Below, piece by piece: positions 2,695 through 26,890 of a stretch of 64,000 bases of DNA. The stretch's first letter is position 1; every line of letters begins with the position of its first letter. Where the stretch lies: assembly GCF_023091245.1 (NCBI RefSeq), contig NZ_JAHWXN010000001.1:1116001-1180000 (forward strand), given 5' to 3'. The stretch comes from Microbacterium croceum (GTDB lineage: Bacteria; Actinomycetota; Actinomycetes; Actinomycetales; Microbacteriaceae). The notes under the pieces are model-generated. The model was not told the DNA's origin. It saw nothing but the letters and a program-made list of their open reading frames with translations, and searched no databases. The translations under genes and the position numbers were made by a program.

Positions 2695-3666
2695 ATGAGC
2701 ATGACCCCCGAACAGGCCGCCTGGTTCCAGGGCACATTCCAGCGTCTGGTCGACAACATCGACAAGGCGGTGCAGGGCAAGAAGGAGATCGTCGGCCTCG
2801 TGCTCTCGTCGATGCTCGCCGAGGGGCACGTGCTGCTGGAGGATGCTCCAGGCACGGGCAAGACCAGCCTGGCGAAGGCACTCGCAGCGACCGTGCAGGG
2901 CACCAGCGCCCGTATCCAGTTCACGCCCGACCTGCTGCCGTCCGATGTGACGGGCGTGACGATCTACGATCAGCAGTCCCACAAGTTCGAGTTCCACAAG
3001 GGACCGATCTTCGCGTCGATCGTGCTTGCGGATGAGATCAACCGCGCCTCGCCGAAGACGCAGTCCGCGCTGCTCGAGGTCATGGAGGAGTCGCGCGTCA
3101 CGGTCGACGGCGTCACGCACGAGACCGGTCGTCCGTTCCTCGTGATCGCGACGCAGAACCCCATCGAGCAGGCCGGAACCTACAAGCTCCCCGAAGCACA
3201 GCTCGACCGCTTCCTGATCAAGACGTCGATCGGCTACCCCGACCTCGCGATCACCGAGAGCATCCTCGCCGGGGCCTCGGACCGCAACCCCTCTGCGGGG
3301 CTCTCGGCCATCATCACCACCAGCGCGGTGGCCGACATGGCCGACCTCGCCGCATCCGTGCACGTCGAGCCGGCGGTGCTGCGCTACGTCGCCGAGCTGG
3401 CCGAGGCCACGCGCGCCGACTCCGCGATCCGCCTGGGTGTCTCGGTGCGCGGTGCGATCGCGATGATCCGCATGGCGAAGGTGTGGGCTGCGGCCCACGG
3501 ACGCCACTTCGTGCTCCCGGACGACATCAAGACGCTGGCCCGCCCGGTCTGGCAGCACCGACTGCTGCTCGACGCCGAGGCGGAGTTCGCCGGCACCAGC
3601 AGCGATGCGGTCGTCGCCCGCGTGCTCGACGCCGTCGCCGCACCGCAGGCGCGAACGGCGGCCTGA
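2695..3666 (+). CDS. MoxR-family AAA+ ATPase
   Basis: A 323-aa AAA+ ATPase of the MoxR type. Walker A is GTGKT with K56, and Walker B is LADEIN with D113-E114. A sensor region (ATQNPIEQ, then LPEAQLDRF) and the MoxR lid domain complete it, at typical family length. MoxR proteins act as chaperone-like ATPases and are commonly encoded next to DUF58 and transglutaminase-like membrane proteins, as here. ATG 2695 is followed in frame by ATG 2701, so the exact start is slightly uncertain. Its TGA overlaps the next ATG (ATGA). It heads the chain of overlapping genes that ends with the EccC-type ATPase. The specific client is unknown. Confidence 0.93.
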   Translation: MSMTPEQAAWFQGTFQRLVDNIDKAVQGKKEIVGLVLSSMLAEGHVLLEDAPGTGKTSLAKALAATVQGTSARIQFTPDLLPSDVTGVTIYDQQSHKFEFHKGPIFASIVLADEINRASPKTQSALLEVMEESRVTVDGVTHETGRPFLVIATQNPIEQAGTYKLPEAQLDRFLIKTSIGYPDLAITESILAGASDRNPSAGLSAIITTSAVADMADLAASVHVEPAVLRYVAELAEATRADSAIRLGVSVRGAIAMIRMAKVWAAAHGRHFVLPDDIKTLARPVWQHRLLLDAEAEFAGTSSDAVVARVLDAVAAPQARTAA

Positions 3667-4928
3667 TGACCGCGGAGGCACTTCAGGCGCCGCCGGCGCA
3701 GACGGAACGCGACGCCGGATGGCGTGACATCGCGGCCGTCATCGGCGCGCGTCTCCTGGCGCGCCTCCGAGTCATCGCGGCGGCAGTCCGCCCCCTGGCG
3801 TGGGTGCTGCTCGCCCTCGTAGCGGGCTTCTGGATCCTCGGCCAGGTCGCCGGCTGGTCGGAGTTCACCGTCGCCGCGGTCGTGATCGCGATCACGCTCG
3901 TGCTGTGCTCCCTGTTCCTCATCGGCCGCACGGCGTACGACGTGTCACTCGACCTCGCGCGCACCCGGGTGGTGGTGGGGGAGCGGGCGGTCGGCGCGCT
4001 GACCCTCGCGAACCGCGGAACACGCGCGATCCTGCCCTCTCGCGTGGTGCTGCCGGTCGGCGCGGGGCGTGGGGAGTTCGGCATCCAGCGTCTCGCCGCC
4101 GGAGAAGAGGCGGAAGAGCTCTTCGCGATCCCCACCCAGAAGCGCGGGGTCGTGAAGGTCGGTCCGGTGAGCGTCGTCCGTGGCGACCCTCTCGGGCTGT
4201 TCGAGCGCGCGCACCGTCGTGACGACCCTGTCGATCTGTACGTGCATCCGCGCACCGTGCTCTTCGACGGCCAGTCGCTCGGGTATCTGCGCGACCTCGA
4301 AGGACTCCCCGCCACTGACCTCTCGCGGGATGACGTCTCGTTCCACGCGCTGCTCGAGTACCAACCAGGCGACGACCTGCGCCACGTGCACTGGCGTTCC
4401 ACGGCGCGCACCGGAACCATGATGGTGCGTCAGTACGAGGAGACGCGCCGGTCTCACTTCGTGATCGGCCTCTCGCGCTCGGCGGGCGACTACTCCTCCG
4501 ATCAGGACTTCGAACTCGCGATCTCCATCGCCGGCTCCATCGGGCTGCGCGCGATCCGCGATTCGCAGCGCGTCGATGTGCGCGTGCAGGGCCGTGAGCT
4601 CGCGGCAGGTACAGGGAAGCAGCTGCTCGACTCGCTCGCCGCGATCGAGGAGAGCAAGCCGCGTGAGGGCGGCATCTCGGAGTTGGCCGGCGTGGTCTCC
4701 CGAACGATGCCCCTCGCGAGCGTCGTGGTGCTGGTGTGCGGCTCGAAGGTGCGCAGCGACGATCTCCGCCTCGCCTGCTCCCGCCTGCCCTATGGCGCGC
4801 GCGTCCTCGCCGTCGTCGCGGACGGCTCCGTGTCGTCGCCGGCGCTGCAACGCATCGGCGATGCCGACGTCGTGACGATCGGCGAACTCGCGCAGGTCCC
4901 CCTCGCTCTGCAGAAGGTGCTCGCATGA
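3666..4928 (+). CDS. DUF58 domain membrane protein
   Basis: A 420-aa protein. ATG 3666 is chosen because it overlaps the MoxR stop as ATGA; a longer frame upstream runs through moxR. Two hydrophobic segments lie at about residues 36-85. The DUF58 signature follows at about 230-255 (GDDLRHVHWRSTAR...), with a von Willebrand A-like C-terminal part. DUF58 proteins typically accompany MoxR ATPases and transglutaminase-like proteins. The biochemical function is not established; a scaffold or metal-dependent adhesion role is inferred from the VWA-like fold. It overlaps the next gene as ATGA, indicating translational coupling. Confidence 0.9.
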   Translation: MTAEALQAPPAQTERDAGWRDIAAVIGARLLARLRVIAAAVRPLAWVLLALVAGFWILGQVAGWSEFTVAAVVIAITLVLCSLFLIGRTAYDVSLDLARTRVVVGERAVGALTLANRGTRAILPSRVVLPVGAGRGEFGIQRLAAGEEAEELFAIPTQKRGVVKVGPVSVVRGDPLGLFERAHRRDDPVDLYVHPRTVLFDGQSLGYLRDLEGLPATDLSRDDVSFHALLEYQPGDDLRHVHWRSTARTGTMMVRQYEETRRSHFVIGLSRSAGDYSSDQDFELAISIAGSIGLRAIRDSQRVDVRVQGRELAAGTGKQLLDSLAAIEESKPREGGISELAGVVSRTMPLASVVVLVCGSKVRSDDLRLACSRLPYGARVLAVVADGSVSSPALQRIGDADVVTIGELAQVPLALQKVLA

Positions 4929-7345
4929 CCGCTCCGGCCACCGCGTCCTCCGCGCTCCCCGCGCGACGCTGGATCCTCGACCTCGGCGCCACGATCCTCC
5001 TGGTCGCCGTCTCGCTCATCGGGTTCTGGCCGACGTTCGGCGGGGCGTCGTTCCTGCCCGCTGTCGCCGGGGGCATCCTGCTCGGTCTCGCGATCGCGGC
5101 TGTCGCCGTCTGGCGGCGCTGGGGAATCCTGATCACGACGGGCCTCGTGGTCGCTGCATACTTCGTGTTCGGCGGCGCGTTGGCGCTGCCGCAGACGACG
5201 ATCGCCGGGGTCATCCCCACACTCGACACCCTGCAGCGACTCGCGTTCGGGCCGGTGACGGCATGGAAGCAGCTGCTGACGACCGTGGCTCCCGTGGCTG
5301 CCGGCGACGGCCACCTGCTCGTCCCCTTCCTGCTCGCCCTGGTGGTGACGGCGCTCACGGCGTCGCTGGCCCTGCGTCTCTCGCAGGTGGCGTGGGCGCT
5401 GATCCCCGCCGCCGCGCTGCTCATGCTCGTGATCGCGCTCGGTACGCCGGAGCCTGCTTTCCCGGTCGTGCAGGGACTGGTCTTCGCGGTCGTCGCCGTC
5501 GCCTGGCTCGCGCTGCGCCAGATCTGGGCCCCGCAGAACGCCGCCGTGTCGGTGAGCGACATCGATCCGTCGCGCGCCGCGCACATGCGCATGCGTCGGC
5601 TCCTCGCCGGTCTGGCGGTGCTGGCCATCGCCGGGGGAGCCGGGGTCGCGACGAGCGCGATCGCCTCGCCGGCAGAGAGCAGGCACGTCTTCCGCGACGT
5701 GATCATCCCGCCGTTCAACATCCGCGACTACCCGAGCCCGCTGCAGGCCTTCCGCAAGAACGTGCGTGACGAGGCGGAGGAGACGCTCTTCACCGTCCAA
5801 GGGCTGCCCAAGGGCGCACGGATCCGCACCGCGGTGATGGACCAGTACGACGGCATGGTCTACAACGTCACCGACGGAGGCCCGACGTCCTCGAGCGCCT
5901 TCACACCGCTGCGTTCCGACATGTCGCCGGATGCCGAGGGCGTTCCGGTGACCCTCAAGATCGCGATCGACAACTACCGCGGCGTGTGGATGCCCACGGC
6001 CGGCATCCTCAGCGACATCGAGTTCGACGGAGCCCGCGCCGAGGAGCTGCGGCGGAGCACTTACGTGAACAACGCCACGGAGACCGCGGTCGCCACGCCC
6101 GTGCTCACGAAGGGCGACCAGTACACGGTCGATGCCGTGATGCCGAACGAGTACACCGACGAGCAGCTCGCCGAGCTGGCGTTCGGAACCGTCCCGATGC
6201 CCAAGCAGAGCAACGTCCCCGAGGAGCTCACCACCCTGGCTGCCGAGACCGTCTCCGACGCGGAGACCGCGATCGAGCAGGCCAGGGCACTGGAGTCCTT
6301 CCTCTCCGAGGGCGGGTTCTTCAGCCATGGCCTGGAGGGTGAGGTGCTCTCGCGCGCCGGGCACACCGCCGAGCGCATCTCGACATTGGTCGGTGGCGAT
6401 CAGATGATCGGCGACGACGAGCAGTACGCCGTGGCCATGGCGCTGCTCGCGGGGGAGATCAACATCCCCGCCCGCGTCGTGATGGGCTATTACCCCGAAG
6501 AGGAGCGGGCGGGCGACGCGGTCTTCGAAGCCACGGGCGACGACGTGCACGCCTGGGTCGAGATCAACTTCGAGGGCGTCGGATGGGTGCCCTTCAGCCC
6601 CACCCCGCCCGAGGACCAGGTCCCCAACGACACGAACACCAAGCCGCGGGTCGATCCGAAGCCGCAGGTGCTGCAGCCGCCGCCCCCGCCGCAGGAGCCG
6701 GTCGACCTGCCGCCGACCCTGCCCGACGACCGCGAGTCCGAGGACGAGAACCTGAACCTCGCCGGGATCATCGGCGCGATCCTCCTGATCGGAGGCATCT
6801 CCCTCGCCATCCTCGCGATCCTCGCATCGCCGTTCATCGTGATCGGCGCCTGGAAGGCTGCCAAGCGCCGTGCGCGTCGTTCCGCTGCCCGCACCTCTGA
6901 CCGGATCAGCGGCGGCTGGGACGAGCTGACCGACCGTGCGGTCGACTACGGTGCGCAGGTCGGCACAGGCGGCACCCGCATCGAGGAGGCCACCGTGGTC
7001 GCGAGCAGTCTCGCCGTGCCGCAGGTCACCGCGTTGGCGGAGCGGGCCGACCGCGAGGTCTTCGGCCCCACCGACCCGACTCCCGAAGAGGTCGATGCCT
7101 TCTGGCAGGAGGTCGACGGCATCGTCGGGGGGCTCGGCAGGGAAGCAGGATTCTGGAAGCGGACGAAGGCGCGCCTCAGCCTGCGCTCCCTGCTGGGCGG
7201 GACGGCGGTCTCGAACGGCCTGCAGAACCTGAAGGACGCCGCGACCGCGCGCGTGCGCCGCGAACCTGGCACGATCAAGAACAACACCGGCACGCCCGGT
7301 GGCACCGGCACGACGTCCACCTCACCCGAGAGCGAGACCCCATGA
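4925..7345 (+). CDS. Transglutaminase-like membrane protein, catalytically degenerate
   Basis: An 806-aa protein starting at ATG 4925 (ATGA overlap with DUF58). An N-terminal multispanning membrane region (about residues 12-240, TgpA/DUF3488-like) precedes an extracytoplasmic transglutaminase-fold domain (about 420-565). A Pro-rich linker, one membrane helix (about 610-636) and a cytosolic tail of about 165 residues follow. In the family the core triad is Cys-His-Asp. Here the block normally reading G-x-C-E-Q is GDDEQ, so Asp498 replaces Cys. H542 (VHAW) is kept. The Asp of the usual DPTP is Ser558 (FSPTP). The domain should therefore be inactive as a transglutaminase or protease and may be a binding or sensor module. 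Its neighbours indicate a part in the MoxR/DUF58 membrane complex. Confidence 0.88.
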   Translation: MTAPATASSALPARRWILDLGATILLVAVSLIGFWPTFGGASFLPAVAGGILLGLAIAAVAVWRRWGILITTGLVVAAYFVFGGALALPQTTIAGVIPTLDTLQRLAFGPVTAWKQLLTTVAPVAAGDGHLLVPFLLALVVTALTASLALRLSQVAWALIPAAALLMLVIALGTPEPAFPVVQGLVFAVVAVAWLALRQIWAPQNAAVSVSDIDPSRAAHMRMRRLLAGLAVLAIAGGAGVATSAIASPAESRHVFRDVIIPPFNIRDYPSPLQAFRKNVRDEAEETLFTVQGLPKGARIRTAVMDQYDGMVYNVTDGGPTSSSAFTPLRSDMSPDAEGVPVTLKIAIDNYRGVWMPTAGILSDIEFDGARAEELRRSTYVNNATETAVATPVLTKGDQYTVDAVMPNEYTDEQLAELAFGTVPMPKQSNVPEELTTLAAETVSDAETAIEQARALESFLSEGGFFSHGLEGEVLSRAGHTAERISTLVGGDQMIGDDEQYAVAMALLAGEINIPARVVMGYYPEEERAGDAVFEATGDDVHAWVEINFEGVGWVPFSPTPPEDQVPNDTNTKPRVDPKPQVLQPPPPPQEPVDLPPTLPDDRESEDENLNLAGIIGAILLIGGISLAILAILASPFIVIGAWKAAKRRARRSAARTSDRISGGWDELTDRAVDYGAQVGTGGTRIEEATVVASSLAVPQVTALAERADREVFGPTDPTPEEVDAFWQEVDGIVGGLGREAGFWKRTKARLSLRSLLGGTAVSNGLQNLKDAATARVRREPGTIKNNTGTPGGTGTTSTSPESETP

Positions 7346-8649
7346 CACTGCTACCGTTCGGCCAGGTCGCGCCGGTCTCCCGGCGTGCGGTGGCCTACAT
7401 CATCGACGCACTGATCGCCGGAGGCCTCGGGGTCGTCCTCGGCGGGGGCCTGCTGGTCGCCGCCTCGCTCGCGGGCGGGATCGAGGCGACGCTGACCACG
7501 CTCCTGATCGGCGGCCCGATCGTCAGTCTGGTCCTGTTGGCCTGGTTCGTCGTGTACACGGTGATGCAGGCGGGTAACGGCTCGATCGGGATGCGGGCGC
7601 AGGGGCTGCGCCTCGCATCGGCGGTCGACGGGACGCCGGTGGGCTTCGGACGTGCCCTCCTGCGCAATGTCATCTTCGGTCTGGCCGGCGCGATCGTCGT
7701 CGGATACTTCAGCCCGTTGTTCGATGGTTCCGGACGCTTCCAGGGCTGGCATGACAAGGTCGGGAACGCCCTGATGCTGGACGCACGTGTCGAGGCGCCT
7801 GTGCCGTCCACGACGCCGGCCCCCGCCGCCCCGGCATCGCTCGCCTCCGCCGCGCCCGCGACCTCGGCTGCTCCGGTGGTCCCCGGCCTCCCGCATCCGT
7901 CTTCGCGCGCCGGGGCGCCGTTCGTGCCCCCCGCCGCGACGCCGGCGCCCGGGTTCGGACAGCCGACGCCTCCCGCGCCCGTGGCTTCGCCGCCTGCACC
8001 TGCTCCTTCGTTCGCTGCACCGGCTCCGGCGTCGGCGGGTCCGGCCGCACCGGCGGCACCGATCCCCGACGCCGGTGACCTGATCGCTTTCGTGCCCGGA
8101 ATCACACAGGACTCCGCGCCGGCTCGTGCGATGCCGGCGCCCGAGCCAGCGCCGCCGACCCCCGCTCCCGCTCCTGCCCCCTCCGTGCCTGCTGCGCCGG
8201 CTCCCGCTCCTTCTGCTCCCGCCGCTCCTGCTCCCGCTCCTTCTGCTCCCGCCGCTCCTGCTCCCGCGGCCCCAGCGTTCGAGGCGGAGGAATCCGATAT
8301 CGAGGACACCCGCATCAGCATCCCTGGTCACCGTCTGGTGTTCACATGGGATGACGGCACGCGGGTCTCGGTCTCGCGGCGCACGATCTTCGGCCGCAAC
8401 CCCGGTCCGGAGGACGGTGCGATCATCGTCTCGGTGCGCGACGAGACCCTGTCGCTGTCGAAGACGCACTTCGAGGCCGCGGCCGAGGTCTCGGGCGGCT
8501 GGGTGCTCGACAGGCACTCCACCAATGGCATGACCATCGTCCGGGACGGGCAGCGCATCGCCTGCCCTGCCGGACAACGCGTTCCCGTGCGGCTCGGGGA
8601 TGCCATCGAGATCGGCGACCGCATCGTGACCATCGGCGGGTACGCGTGA
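7342..8649 (+). CDS. RDD-FHA domain membrane protein
   Basis: A 435-aa protein with an N-terminal RDD-type membrane domain (about residues 8-150, several hydrophobic segments). A Pro/Ala-rich linker (about 150-315) with repeated APAPSAPAA units follows, then a C-terminal FHA domain (about 329-432). The FHA hallmarks are present: FGRNP, SLSKTH and STNG. FHA domains bind phosphothreonine, so this is a plausible target or docking protein for the kinase encoded downstream. ATG 7342 overlaps the previous stop (ATGA), and its TGA overlaps the next GTG. A second protein with the same layout is at 13277, so the operon carries a pair. The function of the RDD part is inferred only as membrane anchoring or transport. 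Confidence 0.88.
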   Translation: MTLLPFGQVAPVSRRAVAYIIDALIAGGLGVVLGGGLLVAASLAGGIEATLTTLLIGGPIVSLVLLAWFVVYTVMQAGNGSIGMRAQGLRLASAVDGTPVGFGRALLRNVIFGLAGAIVVGYFSPLFDGSGRFQGWHDKVGNALMLDARVEAPVPSTTPAPAAPASLASAAPATSAAPVVPGLPHPSSRAGAPFVPPAATPAPGFGQPTPPAPVASPPAPAPSFAAPAPASAGPAAPAAPIPDAGDLIAFVPGITQDSAPARAMPAPEPAPPTPAPAPAPSVPAAPAPAPSAPAAPAPAPSAPAAPAPAAPAFEAEESDIEDTRISIPGHRLVFTWDDGTRVSVSRRTIFGRNPGPEDGAIIVSVRDETLSLSKTHFEAAAEVSGGWVLDRHSTNGMTIVRDGQRIACPAGQRVPVRLGDAIEIGDRIVTIGGYA

Positions 8650-9458
8650 GGCCCGGACTCGTCGTCTCGACCGGTTCCGCGACGCATCCGGGGCTCCGGC
8701 GCGCGCTGAACGAGGATGCCCATCTGGCGGGCGCTCCGGTGTTCATCGTCGCCGACGGCATGGGCGGACACGAGGCGGGGGAGCGGGCGAGCGCGACCGT
8801 CATCGCGGAGTTCGCGCGCTTCATCGGCCGATCGGCCCTCGAACTCGACGATGTGCGCTTCGCCCTCTCTCGCGCGCGCGACGGCGTAGAGGAGCTCTCG
8901 ACGTCGGGCAACGGTCGAGCCGGGACCACCCTGAGCGGCGTCGTGATCGCCTCCGTCGACGGCATGGGCTACTGGTTGGCCATCAACATCGGCGACTCAC
9001 GCACGTACCGACTGGCCGATGGCGAGCTCGAGCAGGTCAGCGTCGACCACTCCGTGGTGCAGGAGCTGATCGAATCGGGCGAGCTGACCGCCGAGGACGC
9101 GCTCACCGACCGTCGCCGGAACATCATCACTCGGGCGATCGGTGCGAGCAGCACGGGCGACGCGGACTACTGGATGTTCCCCGCCGAGCTGGGCGATCGG
9201 ATCCTGGTGTGCTCCGATGGGCTCACCTCTGAGGTGTCCGACGTCCGAATCCGCGAGGTGCTCCACAACACGTCCGATCCGCAGGAGGCGGCGGACGTGC
9301 TCGTCGCCGACGCGGTGAGCGCCGGGGGACGCGACAACATCACGGTCATCGTCGTCGATGCCGTCTCGGTCGCATCGCGACCCGGGACGCTGCTCGAGAC
9401 CGACACAGACATCGACATGGACACGCGTCCGCGAGAAGCTGCAGGAGGGGTTCACTGA
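8646..9458 (+). CDS. PP2C-family Ser/Thr protein phosphatase
   Basis: A 270-aa PP2C (PPM) phosphatase of the PstP type, soluble, with no membrane helix. The metal-binding motifs are complete: N-E-D near residue 24, ADGMGGH with D37, NIGDS, CSDGL, and the terminal RDN with D230. It should remove phosphate from Ser/Thr residues using Mn2+ or Mg2+ and oppose the kinase encoded at 10909. The start is GTG 8646, overlapping the upstream stop as GTGA. Its TGA overlaps the next ATG (TGATG), behind a good Shine-Dalgarno at about 9443-9450. Phosphatase, kinase and FHA proteins in one operon indicate a self-contained phospho-switch. Confidence 0.95.
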   Translation: MRPGLVVSTGSATHPGLRRALNEDAHLAGAPVFIVADGMGGHEAGERASATVIAEFARFIGRSALELDDVRFALSRARDGVEELSTSGNGRAGTTLSGVVIASVDGMGYWLAINIGDSRTYRLADGELEQVSVDHSVVQELIESGELTAEDALTDRRRNIITRAIGASSTGDADYWMFPAELGDRILVCSDGLTSEVSDVRIREVLHNTSDPQEAADVLVADAVSAGGRDNITVIVVDAVSVASRPGTLLETDTDIDMDTRPREAAGGVH

Positions 9459-10912: not shown

Positions 10913-12558
10913 GTCGTCGTCCCTCTCCGCCACCCGAGCTGCCCGGCTTCACGTACGTGGAGCCGTTGGGCACGGGCGGCTTCGCCGACGTCTTCCTGTA
11001 CGAGCAGGAGATGCCGCGTCGTCGTGTCGCCGTGAAGGTGCTGCTGGCCGACCGCATCTCGAGCGGCGCCGCGCAGGAGTTCACCGACGAGGCGAACGTC
11101 ATGGCGATGCTGTCGACACATCCGGCGATCGTCACGATCTATCAGGCGGGCGTCGCCGGAGACGGCCGACCGTACCTGGTGATGGAGTACTGCCCGCGGC
11201 CGAACCTCCAGTTGCGCGCGCGCAAGGAGCCGTTCTCGGTGGCGGAGGCGCTGCGGGTGGGCGTGCAGGTGGCCGGTGCCGTCGAGACCGCACATCGTGC
11301 CGGGGTCCTGCACCGCGACATCAAGCCTGCCAACATCCTGGTCACGGAGTACAACCGGCCCGCTCTCACCGACTTCGGCATCGCGTCGACCACCGGCGCG
11401 ACGGGCGAGGCCTCCGGCATGTCGATCCCGTGGTCGCCGCCGGAGTCGTTCGCGGAGCCTCCGCAGAGCGGTCCCCGCACCGACGTCTGGGCGCTGGGGG
11501 CGACGCTGTACACGCTGCTGGCCGGACGGTCGCCGTTCGAGAGGCCGGGCGAGCGCAACTCGAGTGCCGACCTGATCGAGCGCATCGAGCGGGCGGCACT
11601 GCAGTCCCTCAACCGTCCGGACTCTCCCGAGAGCTTGCAGCGCGTGCTCGACCGCGCTATGGCGAAGAACCCCGACGACCGGTTCCCGAGCGCTGTGGCG
11701 TTCGCGCGCGCGCTGCAGAAGGTGCAGATCGAGCTGTCGCACTCGGTGACGCCGATCGATATCGTCGACGAGCACCCGTCGCAGGACGAGCTCGAGGACG
11801 ACGGCGACGGGCTCACCCGCGTGCGGGAGATCGTGAGCATCGACCCCGATGCCGCCTCGTTCACGCGTCCGTCCGCGACCACGCAGCCGCGTGGTTCGCA
11901 GTGGGCGCCCACCGACGTCCCGCGCTTCGATGCGCCGCCCGCCGCCGAGCCCGCGGTCGAGGCCACGCAGATCCGTCCGCCGCGGCCGCCGGCGCCTGCC
12001 CCCGCCGCCGAGGAGCGCACGATCCTGCGCGCCCCGATGGTGGTCGCTCCCGATGCGGCGGCGCCGTTCCCGACGGCGCCCCCGACGGCGGGTGCGCCGG
12101 GAGCCCCGACGCCGCCCCCGCCGGCGAGCGAGACCCCGGCGGCACCGCGCCGTCGCACGGGACTGTGGATCACTCTCGCCGCCGCCAGTGTCGTGCTGAT
12201 CGTCGGAGGCATCTTCGGGCTCAACGCCCTCGTCGCCGGCCTCGCTCCGGAACCGAACCCGCAGGCCTCGGATGAGCCGGAGGCGACCCCGCAGGATCCG
12301 ATCTCCGAAGCCGTGCCCAAGGTCGCCGATGCGACGGCCACTCGCACCGGCGATCAGGTCACGTTCACCTGGACGAACCCGAAGCCGCTCGAAGGCGACA
12401 GCTACCTCTGGGTGAACCTGGACCCCGCCGGCGACGGTGCCGTGAACCAGGTCTCGGAGGAGTCGGCGACGGTCACCGGCGCCGGGCAGGTGTGCATCGA
12501 GGTGATGCTGCGTCGCGCGAACGGCACGGCCTCCGACGTGGTGAAGGTGTGCGGATGA
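10909..12558 (+). CDS. Transmembrane Ser/Thr protein kinase (PknB-like)
   Basis: A 549-aa eukaryotic-type kinase. The kinase domain covers about residues 10-285: a Gly-rich loop (GTGGFADV), K43 (VAVK), the catalytic loop H135-R136-D137 with K139, DFG at D155, and a PPE in place of APE. A Pro-rich juxtamembrane stretch follows. One membrane helix (about 419-443) leads to an extracytoplasmic beta domain of about 85 residues with two Cys, and there are no PASTA repeats. All catalytic residues are present, so it should be active. Likely substrates are threonines in partners that the five FHA proteins then bind; that is inference. GTG 10909 overlaps the previous stop (GTGA), and the stop overlaps the next ATG. 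Confidence 0.95.
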   Translation: MSRRPSPPPELPGFTYVEPLGTGGFADVFLYEQEMPRRRVAVKVLLADRISSGAAQEFTDEANVMAMLSTHPAIVTIYQAGVAGDGRPYLVMEYCPRPNLQLRARKEPFSVAEALRVGVQVAGAVETAHRAGVLHRDIKPANILVTEYNRPALTDFGIASTTGATGEASGMSIPWSPPESFAEPPQSGPRTDVWALGATLYTLLAGRSPFERPGERNSSADLIERIERAALQSLNRPDSPESLQRVLDRAMAKNPDDRFPSAVAFARALQKVQIELSHSVTPIDIVDEHPSQDELEDDGDGLTRVREIVSIDPDAASFTRPSATTQPRGSQWAPTDVPRFDAPPAAEPAVEATQIRPPRPPAPAPAAEERTILRAPMVVAPDAAAPFPTAPPTAGAPGAPTPPPPASETPAAPRRRTGLWITLAAASVVLIVGGIFGLNALVAGLAPEPNPQASDEPEATPQDPISEAVPKVADATATRTGDQVTFTWTNPKPLEGDSYLWVNLDPAGDGAVNQVSEESATVTGAGQVCIEVMLRRANGTASDVVKVCG

Positions 12559-13280
12559 GCGCCGCGGCGGGCGTCACGGTCGAGTTCGCGGGAGAGTACT
12601 TCCCCGTGAGTGCCGGGGGACGGTTCATCGTGGGGCGCGAGGGCGACCTCGAGCTCGACGACAACCTGTTCCTGCACCGGCACTTCCTCGAGATCACGGA
12701 TGCCGATGGGTTGTGGTGGCTGTCGAACGTCGGTACCCGGCTGACGGCGACCGTGACCGACTCAGCCGGTGGGGTGCAGGCCTGGCTGGCGCCGGGCGCG
12801 CGCCTGCCCCTGGTGTTCGAGAAGACCACGGTGGTCTTCAGTGCCGGGCCGACCACGTACGAGCTGACCCTGCACGCTGCCGAGCCGACGTTCCGCGCCA
12901 CCCAGCGCGAGCACGACGACGGTGGGGCATCCACGATCGGCGACATGCCGCTCACGCTCAGCCAGCGGTTGCTGATCCTGGCCCTCGCCGAGCCGCAGCT
13001 GCGGCGCGACGGGACCGGGATGAGCGAGATCCCGACCTCCGCGAAGGCGGCAGAGCGACTGGGGTGGACGGTCACCCGGTTCAATCGCAAGCTCGACAAT
13101 GTCTGCGACAAGTTCGACCGCATCGGCGTTCCCGGGATGCGCGGCGGCCAGCGCAGCTTCGCCACGAACCGGCGGGCCCGGCTCGTCGAGCATGTGATCG
13201 CCTCGCGCCTGGTGACTCGAGCGGATCTGCCGCTGCTGGACGCCTCTCACGACGACGACGGAGAAGGAGAGCAGGAGTGA
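12555..13280 (+). CDS. FHA-like protein with C-terminal helix-turn-helix
   Basis: A 241-aa protein starting at ATG 12555 (ATGA overlap with the kinase stop). Residues about 5-100 form an FHA-like beta sandwich that keeps VGRE and a His (LHRHFLEI) but lacks the usual Ser and NG, so phosphopeptide binding may be altered. Residues about 130-215 are helical. They contain a stretch (SAKAAERLGWTVTRFNRKL) that looks like a helix-turn-helix, followed by a winged-helix-like end. The tail is acidic. An FHA-HTH fusion inside a kinase operon could couple phosphorylation to transcription. It is the only visible candidate in this locus to bind the inverted repeats upstream of the WXG100 genes; that link is inference. 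Confidence 0.8.
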   Translation: MSAAAGVTVEFAGEYFPVSAGGRFIVGREGDLELDDNLFLHRHFLEITDADGLWWLSNVGTRLTATVTDSAGGVQAWLAPGARLPLVFEKTTVVFSAGPTTYELTLHAAEPTFRATQREHDDGGASTIGDMPLTLSQRLLILALAEPQLRRDGTGMSEIPTSAKAAERLGWTVTRFNRKLDNVCDKFDRIGVPGMRGGQRSFATNRRARLVEHVIASRLVTRADLPLLDASHDDDGEGEQE

Positions 13281-14767
13281 TCTGGGAGATCGACGATCAC
13301 GCTCCTGAGATCGAGGGACTCGACAAGAACGGACGACCCGACCCGGCGTATGCCGCATCCCTCGGCCTGATCGCCGCGGGGCGCGGTGCGCGCGTCGGCG
13401 CGGCGGTGCTGGAATGGGTGTTGGCCGTGATCATCGCCCTGCCGGCGATCTTCACGCTGACTCCGATCCTGGTCGGTGCTGCCGCCGGCGGATTCGACCC
13501 GGAGAAGTTCTTCGCGCGCGACGATCTGGTCTGGATCATCGTCGCCGTCGCGGCGTCGCAGGGCCTCATGATCGCCTACATCGTGGTGCAGCTGGTGCTG
13601 CACGGACGCAAGGGCATCACGCTCGGCAAGGCCGTGTGCGGCATCCGCTCGATCAACGTCCGCACGCTCGAGCGCCCCGGCTTCTGGCGCGGCGCGGTCG
13701 TGCGCTACCTCGTCGCGTGCGCATCGTTCCTGATTCCCGTGATCGGGCCCGCGCTGGTCGTCGCGCTCTCCCCGCTGTTCGACATCGAGAGGAGAGGACG
13801 CGGGTGGCTCGACCTCGCCGCCGCCACCTGGTTCGTCGATGCCCGTCGCGGGCTGAACCCCTATGACCAGAAGCGGATGCGTATCGCGCGCAAGCGCGTG
13901 AAGACCCCGGAGCACGAGGAGAAGGCGCCGCTGCCGTCGCTCGCGACCCCGGTCGACCGTGATGCTCCCGCCGCCTACGTGCCGAGTGCGCGTCAGTCCG
14001 GCGGCGTGATCGGCGCGCACCGCAGCGGCACCGGGACCGTGCCGGCCGCGTCGCCGGAGGAATCCTCCGGAGCGGCGGTCGTGTCGGCTGTGCCGCCGTC
14101 GCTGGCCACCGGAGCGCCCGCCCCGACGTTCGCGCCGCCGGCCGCCCCGGCCCCGGTCGCTGCTCCGGTGTCCTCGTTCGCGCCGCCGGCACCCGCGCCC
14201 GCCGCCCCCGCGCCCGCTGCCCCCGCGCCCGCCGCCCCCGCGCCCGCCGCGCCCGCTGCGGTGCCCGTTGCCGCGCCGGCTGCCCCGTCGACACCGGCCG
14301 TCCTGCGCCCGGCGGCCACCCCCGCCCCCGCCGCGGCACCGTCGCCGTCGACACCGCCCTTGGCTCCGGCATCCGCATCCGCATCCGCCCCCGCACCGGC
14401 GGCCGCATCCGCACCTGCACCGACAGCTGCACCTGCCGGTGTGCGCGCCGTGCTGATGCTCGACTCGGGCGACCGCATCGAGGTGCGCGGCACCACGCTG
14501 TTCGGGCGCGCGCCCGCCGCCGCCGCCGGCGAAGGCGAGGCGCAGCTGGTGCGCGTGCCCGACGACACCCGCTCGGTGTCCAAGACGCACCTGGCCGTGA
14601 TGCCCGCCAGACGCGGTGTCTTCGCGGTCGATCGCGCCTCGACCAACGGCAGCGCGATCATCCGGAACGGGGCCGAGACCCCGCTGGTCGCCGGCCATCC
14701 GGCCGAGCTGCAGACCGGCGACACCGTGCGTTTCGGCGACCGGACGCTGACGGTGGAGTGGGTATGA
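13277..14767 (+). CDS. Second RDD-FHA domain membrane protein
   Basis: A 496-aa protein starting at GTG 13277 (GTGA overlap). The N-terminal RDD membrane domain (about residues 25-205) has at least three hydrophobic segments and the typical GITLGKAVCGIR block. A long Ala/Pro linker (about 215-390) follows, then a C-terminal FHA domain (about 392-495) with FGRAP, SVSKTHL and STNGS. The architecture matches the protein at 7342, indicating an old duplication within the operon. With FHA domains presumably on the cytosolic face, the pair could anchor phosphorylated partners at the membrane. Its stop overlaps the 16-codon ORF that bridges to the EccC gene. RDD function is not established. Confidence 0.88.
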   Translation: MIWEIDDHAPEIEGLDKNGRPDPAYAASLGLIAAGRGARVGAAVLEWVLAVIIALPAIFTLTPILVGAAAGGFDPEKFFARDDLVWIIVAVAASQGLMIAYIVVQLVLHGRKGITLGKAVCGIRSINVRTLERPGFWRGAVVRYLVACASFLIPVIGPALVVALSPLFDIERRGRGWLDLAAATWFVDARRGLNPYDQKRMRIARKRVKTPEHEEKAPLPSLATPVDRDAPAAYVPSARQSGGVIGAHRSGTGTVPAASPEESSGAAVVSAVPPSLATGAPAPTFAPPAAPAPVAAPVSSFAPPAPAPAAPAPAAPAPAAPAPAAPAAVPVAAPAAPSTPAVLRPAATPAPAAAPSPSTPPLAPASASASAPAPAAASAPAPTAAPAGVRAVLMLDSGDRIEVRGTTLFGRAPAAAAGEGEAQLVRVPDDTRSVSKTHLAVMPARRGVFAVDRASTNGSAIIRNGAETPLVAGHPAELQTGDTVRFGDRTLTVEWV

Positions 14768-14814
14768 CCGCACACGATGAGACGCGCCCCCGGCGCGGTG
14801 AGGACGGACGATGA
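14764..14814 (+). CDS. 16-codon mini-ORF coupling the RDD-FHA gene to the EccC gene
   Basis: ATG 14764 overlaps the stop of the RDD-FHA gene (ATGA). The frame encodes MTAHDETRPRRGEDGR and its TGA (14812-14814) overlaps the ATG of the EccC gene (again ATGA). Without it this would be the only non-overlapping junction between 2695 and 14811. It contains the GAGG used as the eccC ribosome-binding site. It may be a translational coupling device, a small arginine-rich peptide, or chance. No homologue is recognised. Confidence 0.45.
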   Translation: MTAHDETRPRRGEDGR

Positions 14815-17800
14815 GAGTCAAGCTGACCCTGCGTCGACCCGCAGCCCCCCTGACGGATGTGGTGGTGATGGCGGACTCGACGGCGACCATCGCCGATGTC
14901 GCTCGCCAGATTGCGACCACCGATCCGCAGCGGAGCATCGCGGCGGGTCCCGCCGATGTGCTCACGCTGTCCGTGGCGCCGCCGACGAGCGACCAGCTCA
15001 CGATGCTCAGCCCCGACCTGCTCGTGGGCGACGCCCCGATCGGCTCCGGGTTCCTCGCCGAGGTCGTCAACGTCGGACCTCACCACGCCTCGACCGGCAC
15101 CATCGGCGCCCGCCCCGCCGCCTTGCTCAGCGTCGTGTCCGGACCCGCGTCCGGGCAGGAGTTCCCGCTGCCGATCGGTCACTTCCTGATCGGTCGCGAT
15201 GCGGCCAACGACGTCACCGTGGCCGACCCGCTCGTGTCGAAGCGCCACGCCCGCATCGAGGTCGCCTCGACCTTCGTCGAGCTGGTCGATCTCAACTCCG
15301 CCAACGGCATCCTCGTCGACGGCGGGCTCGTGCAGCGCCTGCGTGTGATCCCCGGCCAGCGGTTCACGCTGGGCGACTGCGAGTTCGTGGTGCATCTGGT
15401 GAGCGATTTCGACGGCTCCGCCGACGGCGACCCCGTGCTCGAGCGGGGCGGCGCGCTCATGTTCAACCGCAGCCCGCGCGTCGAGGAGCGGTTCACCGGC
15501 GAAGACCTCGACGAGCCGCGCTACCCGCGCGATCAGGTGCAGCGGCTGTTCCCCTGGCCGATGCTGGTGGCGCCGATCCTGCTCGGCCTCGCGATCTTCG
15601 CCATGAGCGGGAACCCGCGGTCGCTGCTCATCGTCTTCATGTCGCCGCTGATGATGCTCGGGAACTTCATCTCGCAGAAGACCAACCTCGGCCAGCGTCT
15701 GCGCAAGGAGGAGGAGTCCTTCGAAGAGCAGTTCGAGCGCCTGGAGGAGAAGCTCTACCACGCGCACCCCCGGGAGCGGGAGGTCCGTCACAACGAGGTG
15801 CCGGCGGTCGCCGTCGTGTTCGACGAGGCGATGCGGCTCGGTCCGCTGTTGTGGACGCGGCGCCCCGAGCACTGGAACTTCCTGGCGCTGCGTCTCGGAG
15901 TGTGCGAGGACGAGTCACGCACCCGCATCAAGCGCACCGAGACGCCGGAAGCGCTCGTCGAGTACGTGGAGCGCGTCGACCGTCTGGAAGAGCGCTACAG
16001 GATGATCGCCGATGTGCCGATCCTGGAGTCGCTGCAGAGCGTCGGGTCGATCGGTGTCGCCGGGCCCACGTCGCTCGCGAGCGATGCCCTGCGCGGTATC
16101 GCGGTGCAGCTGTTCGGCATGCACTCGCCGAACGAGCTCGTCACCGTCGCGCTCACGGAGCCGGGCTGGGCGAACGAGCTGGACTGGTTGAAGTGGCTTC
16201 CGCACACCTCCAGCGAGCGCAGCCCCTTCAAAGATGTCTCGCTCGCCGATTCCGCCTCCACGGGCGCTGCCCTGCTCAGCGGTCTGGAGGAGATCGTGCT
16301 GCGCCGATCGCGCGAGGCGAAGTCGCAGCGTCCGCCCTACGGGGACGACTGGGACCCGATGCTGTACGGCACCGACGTCAAGCGTGCCGCGGAGGATGCG
16401 ACCTTCCCCGGCCAGACGGCCATCCTGGTGATCGTCACCAACGACGCCCCCGTCGATCGTGCCCGGCTGACGCAGATCCTCGAGCGCGGAGCGGATGTGG
16501 GGGTCTACGGTCTGTTCGTGGCTCCGGTCGTCGCGGCTCTGCCTGCCGCCTGCCGCACCTTCGTCGACGTGAGCGCCGGCCTCGAGCACGCCGTCGTCGG
16601 CACCGTCCGCAGCGGCGTCGGGTACGGCGACGTGCAGGTCGAGGGCGTGTCGCACGCGTACATGACCATGTTCGCCAAGCGCCTCGCGCCGGTCGTCGAC
16701 TCCAGCACGGTCATCGAGGACTCCTCCGACATCCCGAACTCGGTGAGCTTCCTGTCCCTCGTCGGATCCGAGGTGGCGGAGGACGCGAACGCGGTGATCG
16801 ACCGCTGGCGTCAGAACAACACGATCATCGACCGCTCCGGCGCTCGGCAGTCCCGGCTCAAGAAGGCCGGCAACCTGCGCGCCATCATCGGGCAGTCGAA
16901 GACCGATGCGATGACGCTCGACCTGCGCACGCAGGGGCCACACGCGCTCGTCGGCGGCACGACCGGTGCCGGCAAGAGCGAGTTCCTGCAGGCCTGGGTG
17001 CTCGGCATGGCCGCCGCACACAGCCCCGACCGCGTGACGTTCCTGTTCGTCGACTACAAGGGCGGATCCGCGTTCGCGGACTGCGTCGACCTGCCCCACA
17101 CCGTGGGCCTGGTCACCGACCTGAGCCCGCACCTGGTGCGGCGCGCTCTGACCAGCCTGCGTGCCGAGCTGCACCACCGTGAGCACCTGTTCAACCGCAA
17201 GAAGGCCAAGGACCTCCTCGAGCTCGAGAAGCGCCGCGACCCCGAGACCCCGCCCGCCCTGGTGCTCGTGATCGACGAGTTCGCCGCGCTCGCCGGCGAG
17301 GTCCCCGAGTTCGTGGACGGCGTGGTCGACATCGCCCAGCGCGGCCGTTCGCTCGGCATCCATCTGATCATGGCGACCCAGCGCCCGGCCGGCGTCATCA
17401 AGGACAACCTGCGCGCCAACACCAACCTGCGTGTCGCCCTGCGCATGGCCGACGAATCGGACTCGAAGGATGTCGTGGACGACCCGGTGGCCGCGTCCTT
17501 CTCGCCGTCGCTCCCCGGGCGCGGCATCGCGAAGACCGGGCCGGGGCGCCTCGTGCCGTTCCAGTCGGCCTACGCCGGCGGATGGACCACGGACGAGGCC
17601 CAGGTCGCCGAGGTTCGAGTGGCCGAGCTGCGGTTCGGCTCGATCCAGACCTGGGAGGCCGAACAGGCGCCGGAATCGGACTCGCACGACGAGGATCTCG
17701 GCCCCAACGACCAGAAGCGCATCGTCGCCACTCTCGTGAGGGCGGCACGTGAGGCGCGCATCCCCGCCCCCCGACGCCCGTGGCTCGACGACCTGGAGAG

Positions 17801-19310
17801 CTCTGTCGATATGCGCGACCTCCCCGTGCTCGGCGACGGACAGGTGCTGCTCGGCAAGATGGATGTGCCGGAGCGGCAGCTCCAGGAGCCGGCGTACTTC
17901 CACCCCGACAAGGACGGCTCCCTGCTGGTCTACGGCACCAGTGGATCGGGGAAGTCCACCGTGCTGCGCACGCTCGCGATCGCGGCCGGCTTCGACCCCG
18001 CGCACTCGAACGTCGAGGTGTACGGTCTCGACTTCGGATCCGGATCCCTCAAGAGCCTCGAGGTGCTCCCGCACGTCGGGTCGATCATCTCCGGCGACGA
18101 CTCCGAGCGCGTGCAGCGTGTGCTGCGCTCCCTCGCGAAGGTGCTCGACGACCGTGGCAAGCGCTTCAGCGCCGCCAACGCCTCCAGCCTCACGGAGTAT
18201 CGCGAGATCACCGGCACGGACGAGGCGCGCATCCTGTTCCTGATCGACGGGTTCCCGCAGTTCCGGGCGGAATGGGAGTCGACCACGGCGCGGATGCCGT
18301 TCTACCAGACGTTCATGCGCATCCTCGGCGAAGGGCGTCCGCTCGGCGTGCACGTGATCGCGAGCGCCGATCGCTCGGGATCCGTGCCGACAGCGGTCAG
18401 TGCGAACGTCTCGCGACGCGTGGTGCTGCGCCTCTCGGACGAGTCCGGATACGCGATGCTCAACGCCCCCAAGGACGTGCTCGACGAGCGGTCCGCCCCC
18501 GGGCGCGCGATCGTCGACGGTCTCGAGACGCAGATCGCGACGCTCGGCGGCACGCCGAACGTCGCCGAGCAGACCAAGCTCCTCGACCACCTCGCCGCGC
18601 AGCTCCGGGCGAGCGGTGCGCGGGAAGTGGCCGAGATCGGCGCCCTCCCGACACGGCTGTCCGTGCGCGACCTCCCGGACCGGATCGGCGAGTTCCCTGT
18701 TCTCGGCGTCGCCGAGGACACGCTGGCGCCTCGCGAGTTCGACCCGGTGGGGACGTTCGTGGTGGCCGGCCCGCCGCAGTCCGGCAAGACGACGGCCCTC
18801 AAGGCGATCATCACATCGATGCAGCGGCTGGACCCCGGGGTCAGGCTCTTCCACTTCGGCGGGCGGCGCGCGCAGCTCAAGGGCTATGTGGACTGGACGC
18901 GCAGCGCGGTCACCCCGGAGGACGCGAAGGAGCTCGCGAAGGAGATCGCCGAGATCGCTGTCGACGAGACCCTGCCGATGCGGATGCTCATCGTGGTCGA
19001 GGATGTGCCCCAGTTCGCCGACGGCCCCGCGGAACGTGAGATGAAGGCGCTCTTCCAGGCGATCAACCGCAGCGATCATCTGCTGGTGGGCGATGCCGAC
19101 GTCACTCAGGTCACGAGCGGCTTCGGCTTCATCGGAGACTTCAAGGCCGGACGCAAGGGCATCATCCTCAAGCCGGATGCGTTCGACGGCGATGCGGTCT
19201 TCAAGGTGCCCTTCCCCAAGGTCAAGCGCACCGACTTCCCGGAGGGGCGAGGCATCTTCGTGCAGGCGGGGCGTCAGGTCACGCTGCAGATGCCACTGGT
19301 GGAGGGCTGA
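14811..19310 (+). CDS. eccC: FHA-FtsK/SpoIIIE ATPase of a type VII-like secretion system (EccC/EssC type)
   Basis: A 1499-aa motor ATPase. A small N-terminal domain (1-95) precedes a canonical FHA domain (about 101-200: IGRD, VSKRHARI, SANG). Two membrane helices (about 246-290) and three FtsK-type ATPase domains follow. Walker A motifs are GGTTGAGKS (K722), GTSGSGKS (K1048) and GPPQSGKT (K1326). Only the first domain has a canonical Walker B acidic pair (VIDEFA); the others read LIDGF and VEDVP, as is usual for EccC D2/D3. The FHA N-terminus resembles EssC of Firmicutes more than mycobacterial EccC. It should drive export of WXG100-type substrates, which are encoded immediately downstream. 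The FHA domain suggests gating by the operon's kinase. No EccB, EccD, EccE or MycP gene is visible. Confidence 0.93.
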   Translation: MRVKLTLRRPAAPLTDVVVMADSTATIADVARQIATTDPQRSIAAGPADVLTLSVAPPTSDQLTMLSPDLLVGDAPIGSGFLAEVVNVGPHHASTGTIGARPAALLSVVSGPASGQEFPLPIGHFLIGRDAANDVTVADPLVSKRHARIEVASTFVELVDLNSANGILVDGGLVQRLRVIPGQRFTLGDCEFVVHLVSDFDGSADGDPVLERGGALMFNRSPRVEERFTGEDLDEPRYPRDQVQRLFPWPMLVAPILLGLAIFAMSGNPRSLLIVFMSPLMMLGNFISQKTNLGQRLRKEEESFEEQFERLEEKLYHAHPREREVRHNEVPAVAVVFDEAMRLGPLLWTRRPEHWNFLALRLGVCEDESRTRIKRTETPEALVEYVERVDRLEERYRMIADVPILESLQSVGSIGVAGPTSLASDALRGIAVQLFGMHSPNELVTVALTEPGWANELDWLKWLPHTSSERSPFKDVSLADSASTGAALLSGLEEIVLRRSREAKSQRPPYGDDWDPMLYGTDVKRAAEDATFPGQTAILVIVTNDAPVDRARLTQILERGADVGVYGLFVAPVVAALPAACRTFVDVSAGLEHAVVGTVRSGVGYGDVQVEGVSHAYMTMFAKRLAPVVDSSTVIEDSSDIPNSVSFLSLVGSEVAEDANAVIDRWRQNNTIIDRSGARQSRLKKAGNLRAIIGQSKTDAMTLDLRTQGPHALVGGTTGAGKSEFLQAWVLGMAAAHSPDRVTFLFVDYKGGSAFADCVDLPHTVGLVTDLSPHLVRRALTSLRAELHHREHLFNRKKAKDLLELEKRRDPETPPALVLVIDEFAALAGEVPEFVDGVVDIAQRGRSLGIHLIMATQRPAGVIKDNLRANTNLRVALRMADESDSKDVVDDPVAASFSPSLPGRGIAKTGPGRLVPFQSAYAGGWTTDEAQVAEVRVAELRFGSIQTWEAEQAPESDSHDEDLGPNDQKRIVATLVRAAREARIPAPRRPWLDDLESSVDMRDLPVLGDGQVLLGKMDVPERQLQEPAYFHPDKDGSLLVYGTSGSGKSTVLRTLAIAAGFDPAHSNVEVYGLDFGSGSLKSLEVLPHVGSIISGDDSERVQRVLRSLAKVLDDRGKRFSAANASSLTEYREITGTDEARILFLIDGFPQFRAEWESTTARMPFYQTFMRILGEGRPLGVHVIASADRSGSVPTAVSANVSRRVVLRLSDESGYAMLNAPKDVLDERSAPGRAIVDGLETQIATLGGTPNVAEQTKLLDHLAAQLRASGAREVAEIGALPTRLSVRDLPDRIGEFPVLGVAEDTLAPREFDPVGTFVVAGPPQSGKTTALKAIITSMQRLDPGVRLFHFGGRRAQLKGYVDWTRSAVTPEDAKELAKEIAEIAVDETLPMRMLIVVEDVPQFADGPAEREMKALFQAINRSDHLLVGDADVTQVTSGFGFIGDFKAGRKGIILKPDAFDGDAVFKVPFPKVKRTDFPEGRGIFVQAGRQVTLQMPLVEG

Positions 19311-19954: not shown

Positions 19955-20317
19955 GTGGCAGGCAATGACGGCATGTTGCTCCCAATGGGAGAGCTGCAGA
20001 CGATGGCGCAGCAGATCAGTGGGATCATCTCGGAGTTCGAGTCAGCAAGCGCGAGGCAGGGCGATGTGCAGGACGCCGTCGGCCGCCCCGCCGGGGACGG
20101 TCGCCTTCGCGACCGCTGCCATGCGTTCGAAGGCAGCTGGAACGACAGCCGGGACAAGCTGCTCACCAAGCTCCGCTCGGTGAGCGAGCGTGTGCAGGGG
20201 ACGATCGACGAGACGACCGCGGCGGATCTGGATCTCGCCGGTCAGATGGAGCAGGCTGCGGCGACGCCGCAGGCAGCAGCTCCGAGCGCCGGTCACGGCC
20301 AGCCGTACGCCAACTAG
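19955..20317 (+). CDS. WXG100-like (ESAT-6 family) small protein
   Basis: A 120-aa helical-hairpin protein. GTG 19955 is preceded by AGGAGGG 4-5 nt upstream, which fixes the start. Two long helices flank a turn near FEGSWNDSR, where the W resembles the WxG turn although the Gly is missing. The C-terminus is Ala/Pro/Gln-rich and ends HGQPYAN. It is probably a secreted or chaperone-like WXG100 relative and the partner of the larger protein encoded 10 bp downstream, as is common for type VII effector pairs. It follows the conserved inverted repeat at 19886. Confidence 0.7.
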   Translation: MAGNDGMLLPMGELQTMAQQISGIISEFESASARQGDVQDAVGRPAGDGRLRDRCHAFEGSWNDSRDKLLTKLRSVSERVQGTIDETTAADLDLAGQMEQAAATPQAAAPSAGHGQPYAN

Positions 20318-22960: not shown

Positions 22961-23007
22961 ATGGGGAGTTGTCCCCATCGACGGCTTTGCCGGTTTGTCC
23001 GTAGGGT
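22961..23007 (+). promoter_or_regulatory. Inverted-repeat operator and -10 of the first WXG100 gene
   Basis: ATGGGGA-GTTG-TCCCCAT (22961-22978), followed by CG, then TAGGGT at 23002-23007 as a probable -10. The predicted start is near 23014, leaving an untranslated leader of about 48 nt. Spacing from ATCG to the -10 equals that at 19886. The element lies inside the 389-bp repeat and is identical in the second copy. Confidence 0.6.
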
Positions 23008-23061
23008 GGAGTTATTCGGGCCGGAGGGGTCCGTTCCAGTCGATTTGCGGAGGTGTGGACG

Positions 23062-23349
23062 ATGGCCGATTTCGGTGCGTCTTATGCGGAGATGGAGCAG
23101 GTGGCGTCGTCGCTGTCGCAGGCTCGTGATGACATTCAGGGTCAGTTGGACACGCTGAAGGGTCAGGTGGACACTCTTCTGGGTGAGGACTTCAAGACGC
23201 AGCACGCGTCGGGCAAGTTCGGTGAGGGGTACACGGAGCTGACGACGGGTCTGAAGACCGCGGTCGATGGCATCAATGACATGTCCGAGTCGCTGCTGGG
23301 CATGATGCGTGCGATCCAGGACCTGGATCAGCAGCTCGCCGGCAGCTGA
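23062..23349 (+). CDS. WXG100-family protein, copy 1
   Basis: A 95-aa all-helical protein of ESAT-6/WXG100 size. ATG 23062 is chosen over an in-frame GTG at 23053 because GGAGG lies 8 nt upstream of the ATG. The two helices flank the turn (LLGEDFKTQHASGKF), where the usual WxG is replaced by an acidic-Phe sequence. YxxxE occurs at residues 8-12 rather than near the C-terminus. It is probably a secreted substrate or co-secreted partner of the EccC-type system. The protein is identical to that at 24549. A strong hairpin terminator follows the stop. Confidence 0.88.
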   Translation: MADFGASYAEMEQVASSLSQARDDIQGQLDTLKGQVDTLLGEDFKTQHASGKFGEGYTELTTGLKTAVDGINDMSESLLGMMRAIQDLDQQLAGS

Positions 23350-26876: not shown

Positions 26877-26890
26877 GCGGATGGTGACGG

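Follow-up and report, generated by a model that had tools for sequence, protein, structure and literature searches.

The DNA analysed here is a 64-kb stretch (hereafter the window) of the genome of Microbacterium croceum, which comprises 3.68 Mb in three contigs and is estimated to be 100% complete. Microbacterium is known mainly from soil, plants and water. The forward strand of the window carries, at 2695-19310, an operon which, judged from its sequence, looks like a PFNA-type block and the motor ATPase of a T7SSd-like type VII secretion system (T7SS) made into one operon. We see about an even chance that it encodes a T7SSd-like exporter of WXG100 proteins, built around one large motor and equipped with its own Ser/Thr signalling arm. 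The system is mainly a variant of described systems; what is new is the ubiquitin-like domain predicted as a fused part of the motor, together with the repeated joining of motor and PFNA-type block. Gene content, gene order, conservation, domains, and FHA and catalytic residues were computed, and the gene content is well supported. T7SSd consists of TsdA, TsdC, TsdD, TsdH and TsdI of Olsenella and Bifidobacterium (Garrett, Higginson and Palmer, 2024; PMC11217815), and the PFNA operon of Bifidobacterium is given as pkb2, fn3, aaa-atp, duf58, tgm, prpC, a hypothetical gene and fha (PMC8430577, PMC6803598).

Ten genes fill the operon, in the order MoxR, DUF58, transglutaminase (TGM), RDD-FHA, PP2C, FHA, Ser/Thr kinase, degenerate FHA, a second RDD-FHA and an FHA-bearing EssC/EccC-like ATPase, the motor (Table 1). 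A preliminary description of this DNA had counted eleven units, all chained by overlaps of 1-4 nt; ten lie within 2695-19310, and the eleventh would be the gene for an Ig/Fn3 surface protein, whose end at 2649 precedes the MoxR gene by 45 nt. Eight of the nine junctions do overlap, by 1 or 4 nt, while the last one (14767 to 14811, before the motor) is a 43-nt gap. The placement of a kinase, a PP2C phosphatase, two RDD proteins, MoxR, DUF58 and an FHA-bearing EccC/EssC ATPase in one operon was borne out by Pfam. The five FHA or FHA-like proteins of that description resolve into three that match the Pfam FHA model (9458-10912, 13277-14767 and the motor), a fourth recognised by eye only (7342-8649, which has the G-R...S-x-x-H...N-G signature and no Pfam FHA match), and a degenerate fifth (12555-13280), which neither Pfam nor NCBIfam recognises and whose best match among PDB sequences (E 0.9) is not significant. 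Read by eye, the catalytic Lys, HRD and DFG are all present in the kinase, and hydropathy gives it one transmembrane segment and a small outer part. The phosphatase is recognised by two models (Pfam PP2C_2 and NF033484), the NCBIfam score being under its cut-off. This order is not a matter of chance, since genomes G008 (another family) and G469 (the same genus) show it as well, minus the second RDD-FHA gene.

The motor carries the predicted ubiquitin-like domain at residues 1-95, an FHA domain at residues 126-188, a transmembrane segment near residue 246 and three Walker A motifs, at residues 716, 1042 and 1320. Its best single model is EssC (546 bits, under the cut-off of 778), and EccC scores 336 bits. 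The FtsK_SpoIIIE domain would also suit a DNA translocase of the FtsK kind, to which the WXG100 genes are unrelated; we consider this extremely unlikely, as the FtsK model reaches only 62 bits, and the three P-loops, the FHA and ubiquitin-like domains and a WXG100 gene 3.8 kb downstream of the motor argue against it. Among the 120 ATPase relatives listed, the named ones with at least 90% identity are Microbacterium proteins. In a tree of 37 rows, with Bacillota EssC left out, the window's clade (10 rows) was set off by a fully supported branch, and so was the group of EccC proteins from six genomes in which EccB lies no more than 20 kb away. TsdC of B. mellis was placed apart from the window's clade, the deep forks being weak, and both lay outside the EccB-linked clade; the system is therefore called T7SSd-like rather than T7SSd.

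A ubiquitin-like fold was confidently predicted for residues 1-95 of the window's motor, and the same fold was predicted for the corresponding part of the T7SSd ATPase of B. mellis. In the 2024 survey T7SSd is the one new subtype reported to have no ubiquitin-like component (PMC11217815). No YukD was found in the genome, yet a motor-fused domain is predicted in both the window and B. mellis; the component reported absent from T7SSd may thus be fused to the motor. Among the literature matches listed, there was no ubiquitin-FHA-FtsK fusion and no link between PFNA and T7SS, supplements, figures and most subscription journals being outside the scope of that search, so that the supplement of PMC11217815 may already show the fusion. 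The likeness of the domain to EccD and YukD comes from a fold comparison and one Pfam hit. The Foldseek output itself names 4kv2 and 7b7j as EccD/YukD chains, and 7b9f_X, 6sgx_B, 6umm_B and 9qks_A were taken as EccD or YukD from the complex and the chain length only.

The G-R...S-x-x-H...N-G signature marks phosphothreonine binding by FHA domains. The motor's FHA residues were compared over 18 rows picked from the collected loci. G-R, S, H and N-G were all kept in 13 of these rows, including all ten of the window's clade, even where motor and signalling block are unlinked (G268, G371 and G455). They were lost in B. mellis, G199, G171 and G225, and N-G was missing in G257. Phospho-reading by the motor, as judged from these residues, would therefore be limited to certain lineages, of which the window's is one. 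The same signature is read as a phosphothreonine-binding mark in the 2024 survey, which describes the FHA of T7SSb EssC as lacking these residues, whereas the window's motor keeps them, and which had already proposed phospho-control for T7SSd (PMC11217815). Because the residues are kept throughout the motor's own clade, phospho-control is plausible here, and we regard the phospho-switch as a good hypothesis that is already in print for a sister system. Elsewhere in the genome, FHA-type matches lie at C1:613718 and 2906302.

The linkage of block and motor was followed across 198 genomes of the order. Motors scoring at least 850 bits were taken as the motor's own clade (the next match scored 488), the degenerate FHA gene served as marker of the signalling block, and marker and motor were called linked when within 25 kb. 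The motor clade occurred in 55 genomes, the marker in 74 and both in 47. Linkage was found in 38 of these 47, always on the same strand and across 11 families. When the window's own subclade (motors at least 60% identical to the window's, its own included) was set apart, all 35 of the remaining genomes with both were linked. The eight genomes with the motor and no marker include two that were read: upstream of its motor G302 has genes for Ig/Fn3, MoxR, DUF58, TGM and PP2C, while G355 has a PP2C gene.

The gene order was also read in a phylum sample of 296 genomes, 56 of which gave an ATPase match at E 1e-30. Besides the window's own there were 29 phylum loci, and flanks were read for 20, some ending early at contig ends. 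Four or more block genes were present near the ATPase in seven of these 20 (G008, G208, G097, G220, G134, G171 and G257), while the other 13 showed at most two in the stretch covered. G008 has the order described above, and G208, G097, G220, G134 and G171 have the genes rearranged or on the other strand. In G257, of the window's genus, MoxR-DUF58-TGM, kinase and PP2C genes lie near a distant ATPase of 32% identity, which is not this motor. G327, a member of the Bifidobacteriaceae, has kinase, Ig/Fn3, MoxR, DUF58, TGM and PP2C genes arranged as in the published PFNA operon, and none of its proteins matches the ATPase at E 1e-60. The second RDD-FHA gene stands directly before the motor in the window, G268, G371 and G455, which recommends its product as a candidate for a partner of the motor. 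The motors of G371 and G268 are accompanied by this gene and WXG genes, not by the block, and G455 has a second MoxR-DUF58-TGM set upstream of the motor. In B. mellis (G370), the T7SSd locus contains WXG100, a kinase, a 147-aa protein with one transmembrane segment, a 1798-aa Ig-like protein with one at both ends, the motor and an FHA protein. Its PFNA-type genes (Ig/Fn3, MoxR, DUF58 and TGM) lie 32 kb from the motor, in a stretch that ended before any kinase was visible.

These loci also bear on the idea, put forward in the preliminary description, that the RDD or transglutaminase membrane proteins may stand in for the EccB/D/E channel. The operon does encode such membrane proteins, and EccB and EssB were not found. 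MoxR-DUF58-TGM sets occur without this motor in G257 and G327, however, and G008 and G469 lack the second RDD-FHA gene ahead of the motor; we consider this replacement very unlikely and have abandoned it.

Several observations weigh against the reading of an exporter with its own signalling arm. Inside the window's subclade only three of 12 genomes (G000, G357 and G385) have marker and motor linked; in the unlinked nine, the two lie 0.54-1.73 Mb apart in five and on different contigs in four. The marker occurs without this motor in 27 of its 74 genomes, eight of which have no ATPase match at E 1e-60, and it is no proof of a whole block, as G296 has PP2C, marker and kinase and no TGM match in the genome. 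The co-occurrence of marker and motor (Fisher odds ratio 25, p 3e-18) is uncorrected for ancestry. The T7SSd motor of B. mellis (L081 14467-19038) is without the phosphothreonine residues of its FHA domain, which contrasts with the general statement on TsdC in PMC11217815. With regard to the ubiquitin-like domain, the alignments used for folding were small (18 and 17 sequences), and a Pfam search with the window's own row gives no match to a ubiquitin family. The domain profile retrieved 53 PDB sequences, of which none is EccD or YukD and which include non-ubiquitin proteins (ribosomal L22) from E 0.019 on. The nine unlinked genomes among 12 close relatives, and a marker that does not stand for an entire block, lower our confidence in the exporter reading and raise it for the rival of two modules given next. 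The linkage looks old and mostly broken in the window's subclade, the window having kept or regained it.

There is a real possibility, somewhat short of even, that two modules merely stand side by side, namely a PFNA-type block for envelope or surface signalling and a T7 motor accompanied by an RDD-FHA partner and by WXG100 genes, which would share a promoter or neighbourhood without the kinase controlling export. The genomes with an unaccompanied marker, the broken linkage in the subclade, the PFNA-type block of G327 and the motors of G371 and G268 are all in keeping with this. On the other hand, the unbroken linkage on one strand outside the subclade, the overlapping genes of the window, the second MoxR-DUF58-TGM set of G455 and the conservation of the motor's phosphothreonine-binding residues, even in the unlinked genomes, argue against it. 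The phosphorylation-switched motor of the preliminary description is retained in part: an FHA-bearing motor does share its operon with a kinase and a phosphatase and keeps its binding residues, but a strict switch fits poorly with the 27 genomes in which the marker occurs without the motor. The description makes no mention of the downstream WXG100 genes, of an Ig/Fn3 gene belonging to the operon, of the predicted ubiquitin-like domain or of another T7-type ATPase elsewhere in the genome.

The operon was compared with the closest known systems. As in T7SSd, there is a WXG100 protein (TsdA; PF06013 40.2 bits, 23062-23349), an EssC-type ATPase with an N-terminal FHA domain and its phosphothreonine residues (TsdC), a membrane Ser/Thr kinase with active-site residues (TsdD) and a very large Ig-like surface protein (TsdI). 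The last is 2069 aa long, starts ~3.6 kb upstream of the window and has Big_9 and fn3 matches in its C-terminal part; unlike TsdI, it has one N-terminal transmembrane segment and no C-terminal one by hydropathy. A small protein like TsdH, with one transmembrane segment and a short cytoplasmic part, was not found by hydropathy among the 22 operon and downstream proteins, a set that does not extend to unlisted small open reading frames, whereas B. mellis has such a counterpart (147 aa). Because TsdH and the C-terminal anchor of TsdI are missing, the system was not filed as T7SSd. Unlike T7SSd, the window also adds MoxR, DUF58, TGM, PP2C, two RDD-FHA and two FHA genes.

As in PFNA, kinase, fn3, MoxR ATPase, duf58 and tgm occur together, homologous to the block in G327 and B. 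mellis, and kinase, phosphatase and FHA genes share one operon. In contrast to PFNA, where pkb2 comes first, the window's kinase is seventh of ten and follows PP2C and an FHA gene; the operon also includes RDD-FHA genes and ends with a T7 motor. A text search of the PFNA papers shows neither FtsK nor WXG100 (PMC8430577, PMC6803598). The EssC score of the motor, under cut-off as it is, recalls T7SSb, in which EssC is FHA-bearing; unlike T7SSb, the genome yielded no EssB and no free EsaB/YukD. The EccC-like ATPase and the WXG100 proteins are shared with T7SSa/ESX, where a ubiquitin-like domain exists on EccD, a 12-transmembrane protein, and not on the motor as predicted here. Unlike T7SSa/ESX, there is no EccB, the mycosin-like protease scores under its cut-off and lies away from T7 genes, and the motor falls outside the EccB-linked EccC clade.

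The absence of EccB, EccD and MycP claimed in the preliminary description was followed through the whole genome and stands in part. No EccB was found in the genome, while the same model matches 18 of the 296 phylum genomes, 17 of them over the cut-off. The genome-wide searches for EssB/YukC and for the YukD ubiquitin domain found none either, and the B. subtilis control matches in both cases. The search for EccD found none in the genome, but it matched nowhere and so proves little. A mycosin-like S8 protease was found only under the cut-off (227.9 against 278.75 bits), 0.67 Mb from the operon (C1 1806973-1808316; L101 7974-9317), beside enolase-like and NADH dehydrogenase-like genes recognised by eye, and no T7 gene was recognised in its 17-kb stretch. 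A second, shorter T7-type ATPase (C1:2103193-2106069; 958 aa, EccCa 200.7 bits, cut-off 509, no FHA hit) adjoins a PP2C gene (stretch C1 2102176-2106069; L004 6177-10070) and lies ~3 kb downstream of genes that resemble ATP synthase subunits by eye. This protease and this ATPase are what would favour a conventional T7SSa with its other parts elsewhere in the genome. With neither EccB nor a YukD-type domain found, the protease set among metabolic-looking neighbours and the motor outside the EccB-linked clade, such a system is very unlikely.

For the exporter with its own signalling arm, the following course of events can be proposed. The fused ubiquitin-like domain would take the place of EsaB/EccD on a motor of the EssC/EccC type with three P-loops, and the motor's FHA domain would read phosphothreonine. 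We infer that the membrane-bound kinase, on perceiving a cue from outside, phosphorylates threonines of the RDD-FHA proteins, of itself, or of the Ig/Fn3 or transglutaminase protein. Docking of the motor's FHA domain and of the other FHA proteins on these phosphothreonines would then assemble or activate the motor, and PP2C would reverse this. The WXG100 proteins and the T7-signal and hydrolase proteins encoded downstream are the putative cargo, while the Ig/Fn3 protein may cross the wall or coat it, a role that has been suggested for TsdI.

We put forward more tentatively, as a rather doubtful generalisation, that the order has a motor-centred T7SS in which the ubiquitin-like domain (in the EsaB/EccD role) and the phosphothreonine reader both sit on the ATPase, which would make an EccB/D/E or EssA/B core unnecessary; the PFNA operon, described until now as a bifidobacterial host-communication cluster, would be the phospho-signalling arm of the exporter where both meet. 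The fused domain, if true, would close the gap left by the missing ubiquitin component of T7SSd, and the EsaB/EccD role would be testable in a simple construct by deletion of a single domain. A T7 motor joined to a PFNA-type block would link two literatures between which no connection appeared among the matches listed, and with the operon it becomes possible to test directly whether phosphothreonine controls a type VII motor.

Table 1. Genes of the operon and of its flanks in the window, with the evidence for each assignment
Feature	Position	Strand	Evidence and remarks
Ig/Fn3 surface protein, C-terminal part	1..2649	+	Pfam fn3 116.8 bits, Big_9 43.4; TsdI-like / PFNA fn3-like
MoxR AAA ATPase	2695..3666	+	Pfam AAA_3 210.7 bits
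DUF58 protein, hydrophobic segments close to N-terminus	3666..4928	+	Pfam DUF58 46.1 bits; hydropathy
TgpA-like transglutaminase-core membrane protein	4925..7345	+	Transglut_core 54.5 bits, TgpA_N 39.4; hydropathy
RDD membrane protein, C-terminal FHA-like part	7342..8649	+	RDD 55.9 bits; signature by eye
PP2C Ser/Thr phosphatase	8646..9458	+	PP2C_2 40.5 bits; NF033484 187.5 bits, cut-off 230
FHA protein, phosphothreonine signature kept	9458..10912	+	Pfam FHA; signature read
Ser/Thr kinase	10909..12558	+	Pkinase 141.2 bits; catalytic residues by eye; hydropathy
Degenerate FHA-like protein	12555..13280	+	Ser of SxxH is Leu; no Pfam match; signalling-block marker
Second RDD-FHA membrane protein, phosphothreonine signature kept	13277..14767	+	RDD 42.9 bits; Pfam FHA
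T7-type motor ATPase	14811..19310	+	FtsK_SpoIIIE 208.3 bits; predicted ubiquitin-like domain, FHA, transmembrane segment, three Walker A motifs
WXG100-like small protein	19955..20317	+	No family matched; W-N-D motif read by eye; candidate partner for the product of the 20327 gene
Candidate substrate, putative T7SS signal domain	20327..21643	+	27.4 bits, cut-off 27: marginal
WXG100 protein, candidate TsxA/EsxA	23062..23349	+	PF06013 40.2 bits, cut-off 27.3
Second WXG100 copy	24549..24836	+	Protein identical to the 23062 product; sequence comparison
97-aa protein, overlapping an Abhydrolase_8 protein	24922..25215; 25212..26876	+	97-aa protein without family match; candidate partner/substrate pair

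The whole genome contains four PF06013 matches. The window's two WXG100 stretches (22961-23349 and 24448-24836) are identical over 298 nt, including upstream DNA. A third copy (L102 7258-7554, reverse strand) lies 0.34 Mb off with 96-98% DNA identity, beside genes that resemble ribosomal-protein genes by eye. The three near-identical copies look like the outcome of recent copying or gene conversion. Near the WXG100 genes, 19379-19879 and 23625-24329 encode proteins that look related by eye, share a zinc-ribbon-like CxCGY...CxxCG motif and have no Pfam match. Further downstream, 26558-29207 holds direct repeats that have diverged to 67-76% identity, along with two genes of lipoprotein-like products and several pieces of the end of the alpha/beta-hydrolase gene, perhaps a decaying or recombining effector array.

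An assignment to anti-phage defence was considered and set aside: PADLOC matches the kinase (PD-T4-6 192 bits, mad6 193) and the ATPase (mad8 153, SspH 123), and these matches were read as shared kinase and FtsK/HerA folds. The remainder of the window includes two very large open reading frames of coding-like composition, at 46814-52159 (forward strand, 1781 aa) and 55883-60412 (reverse strand, 1509 aa).

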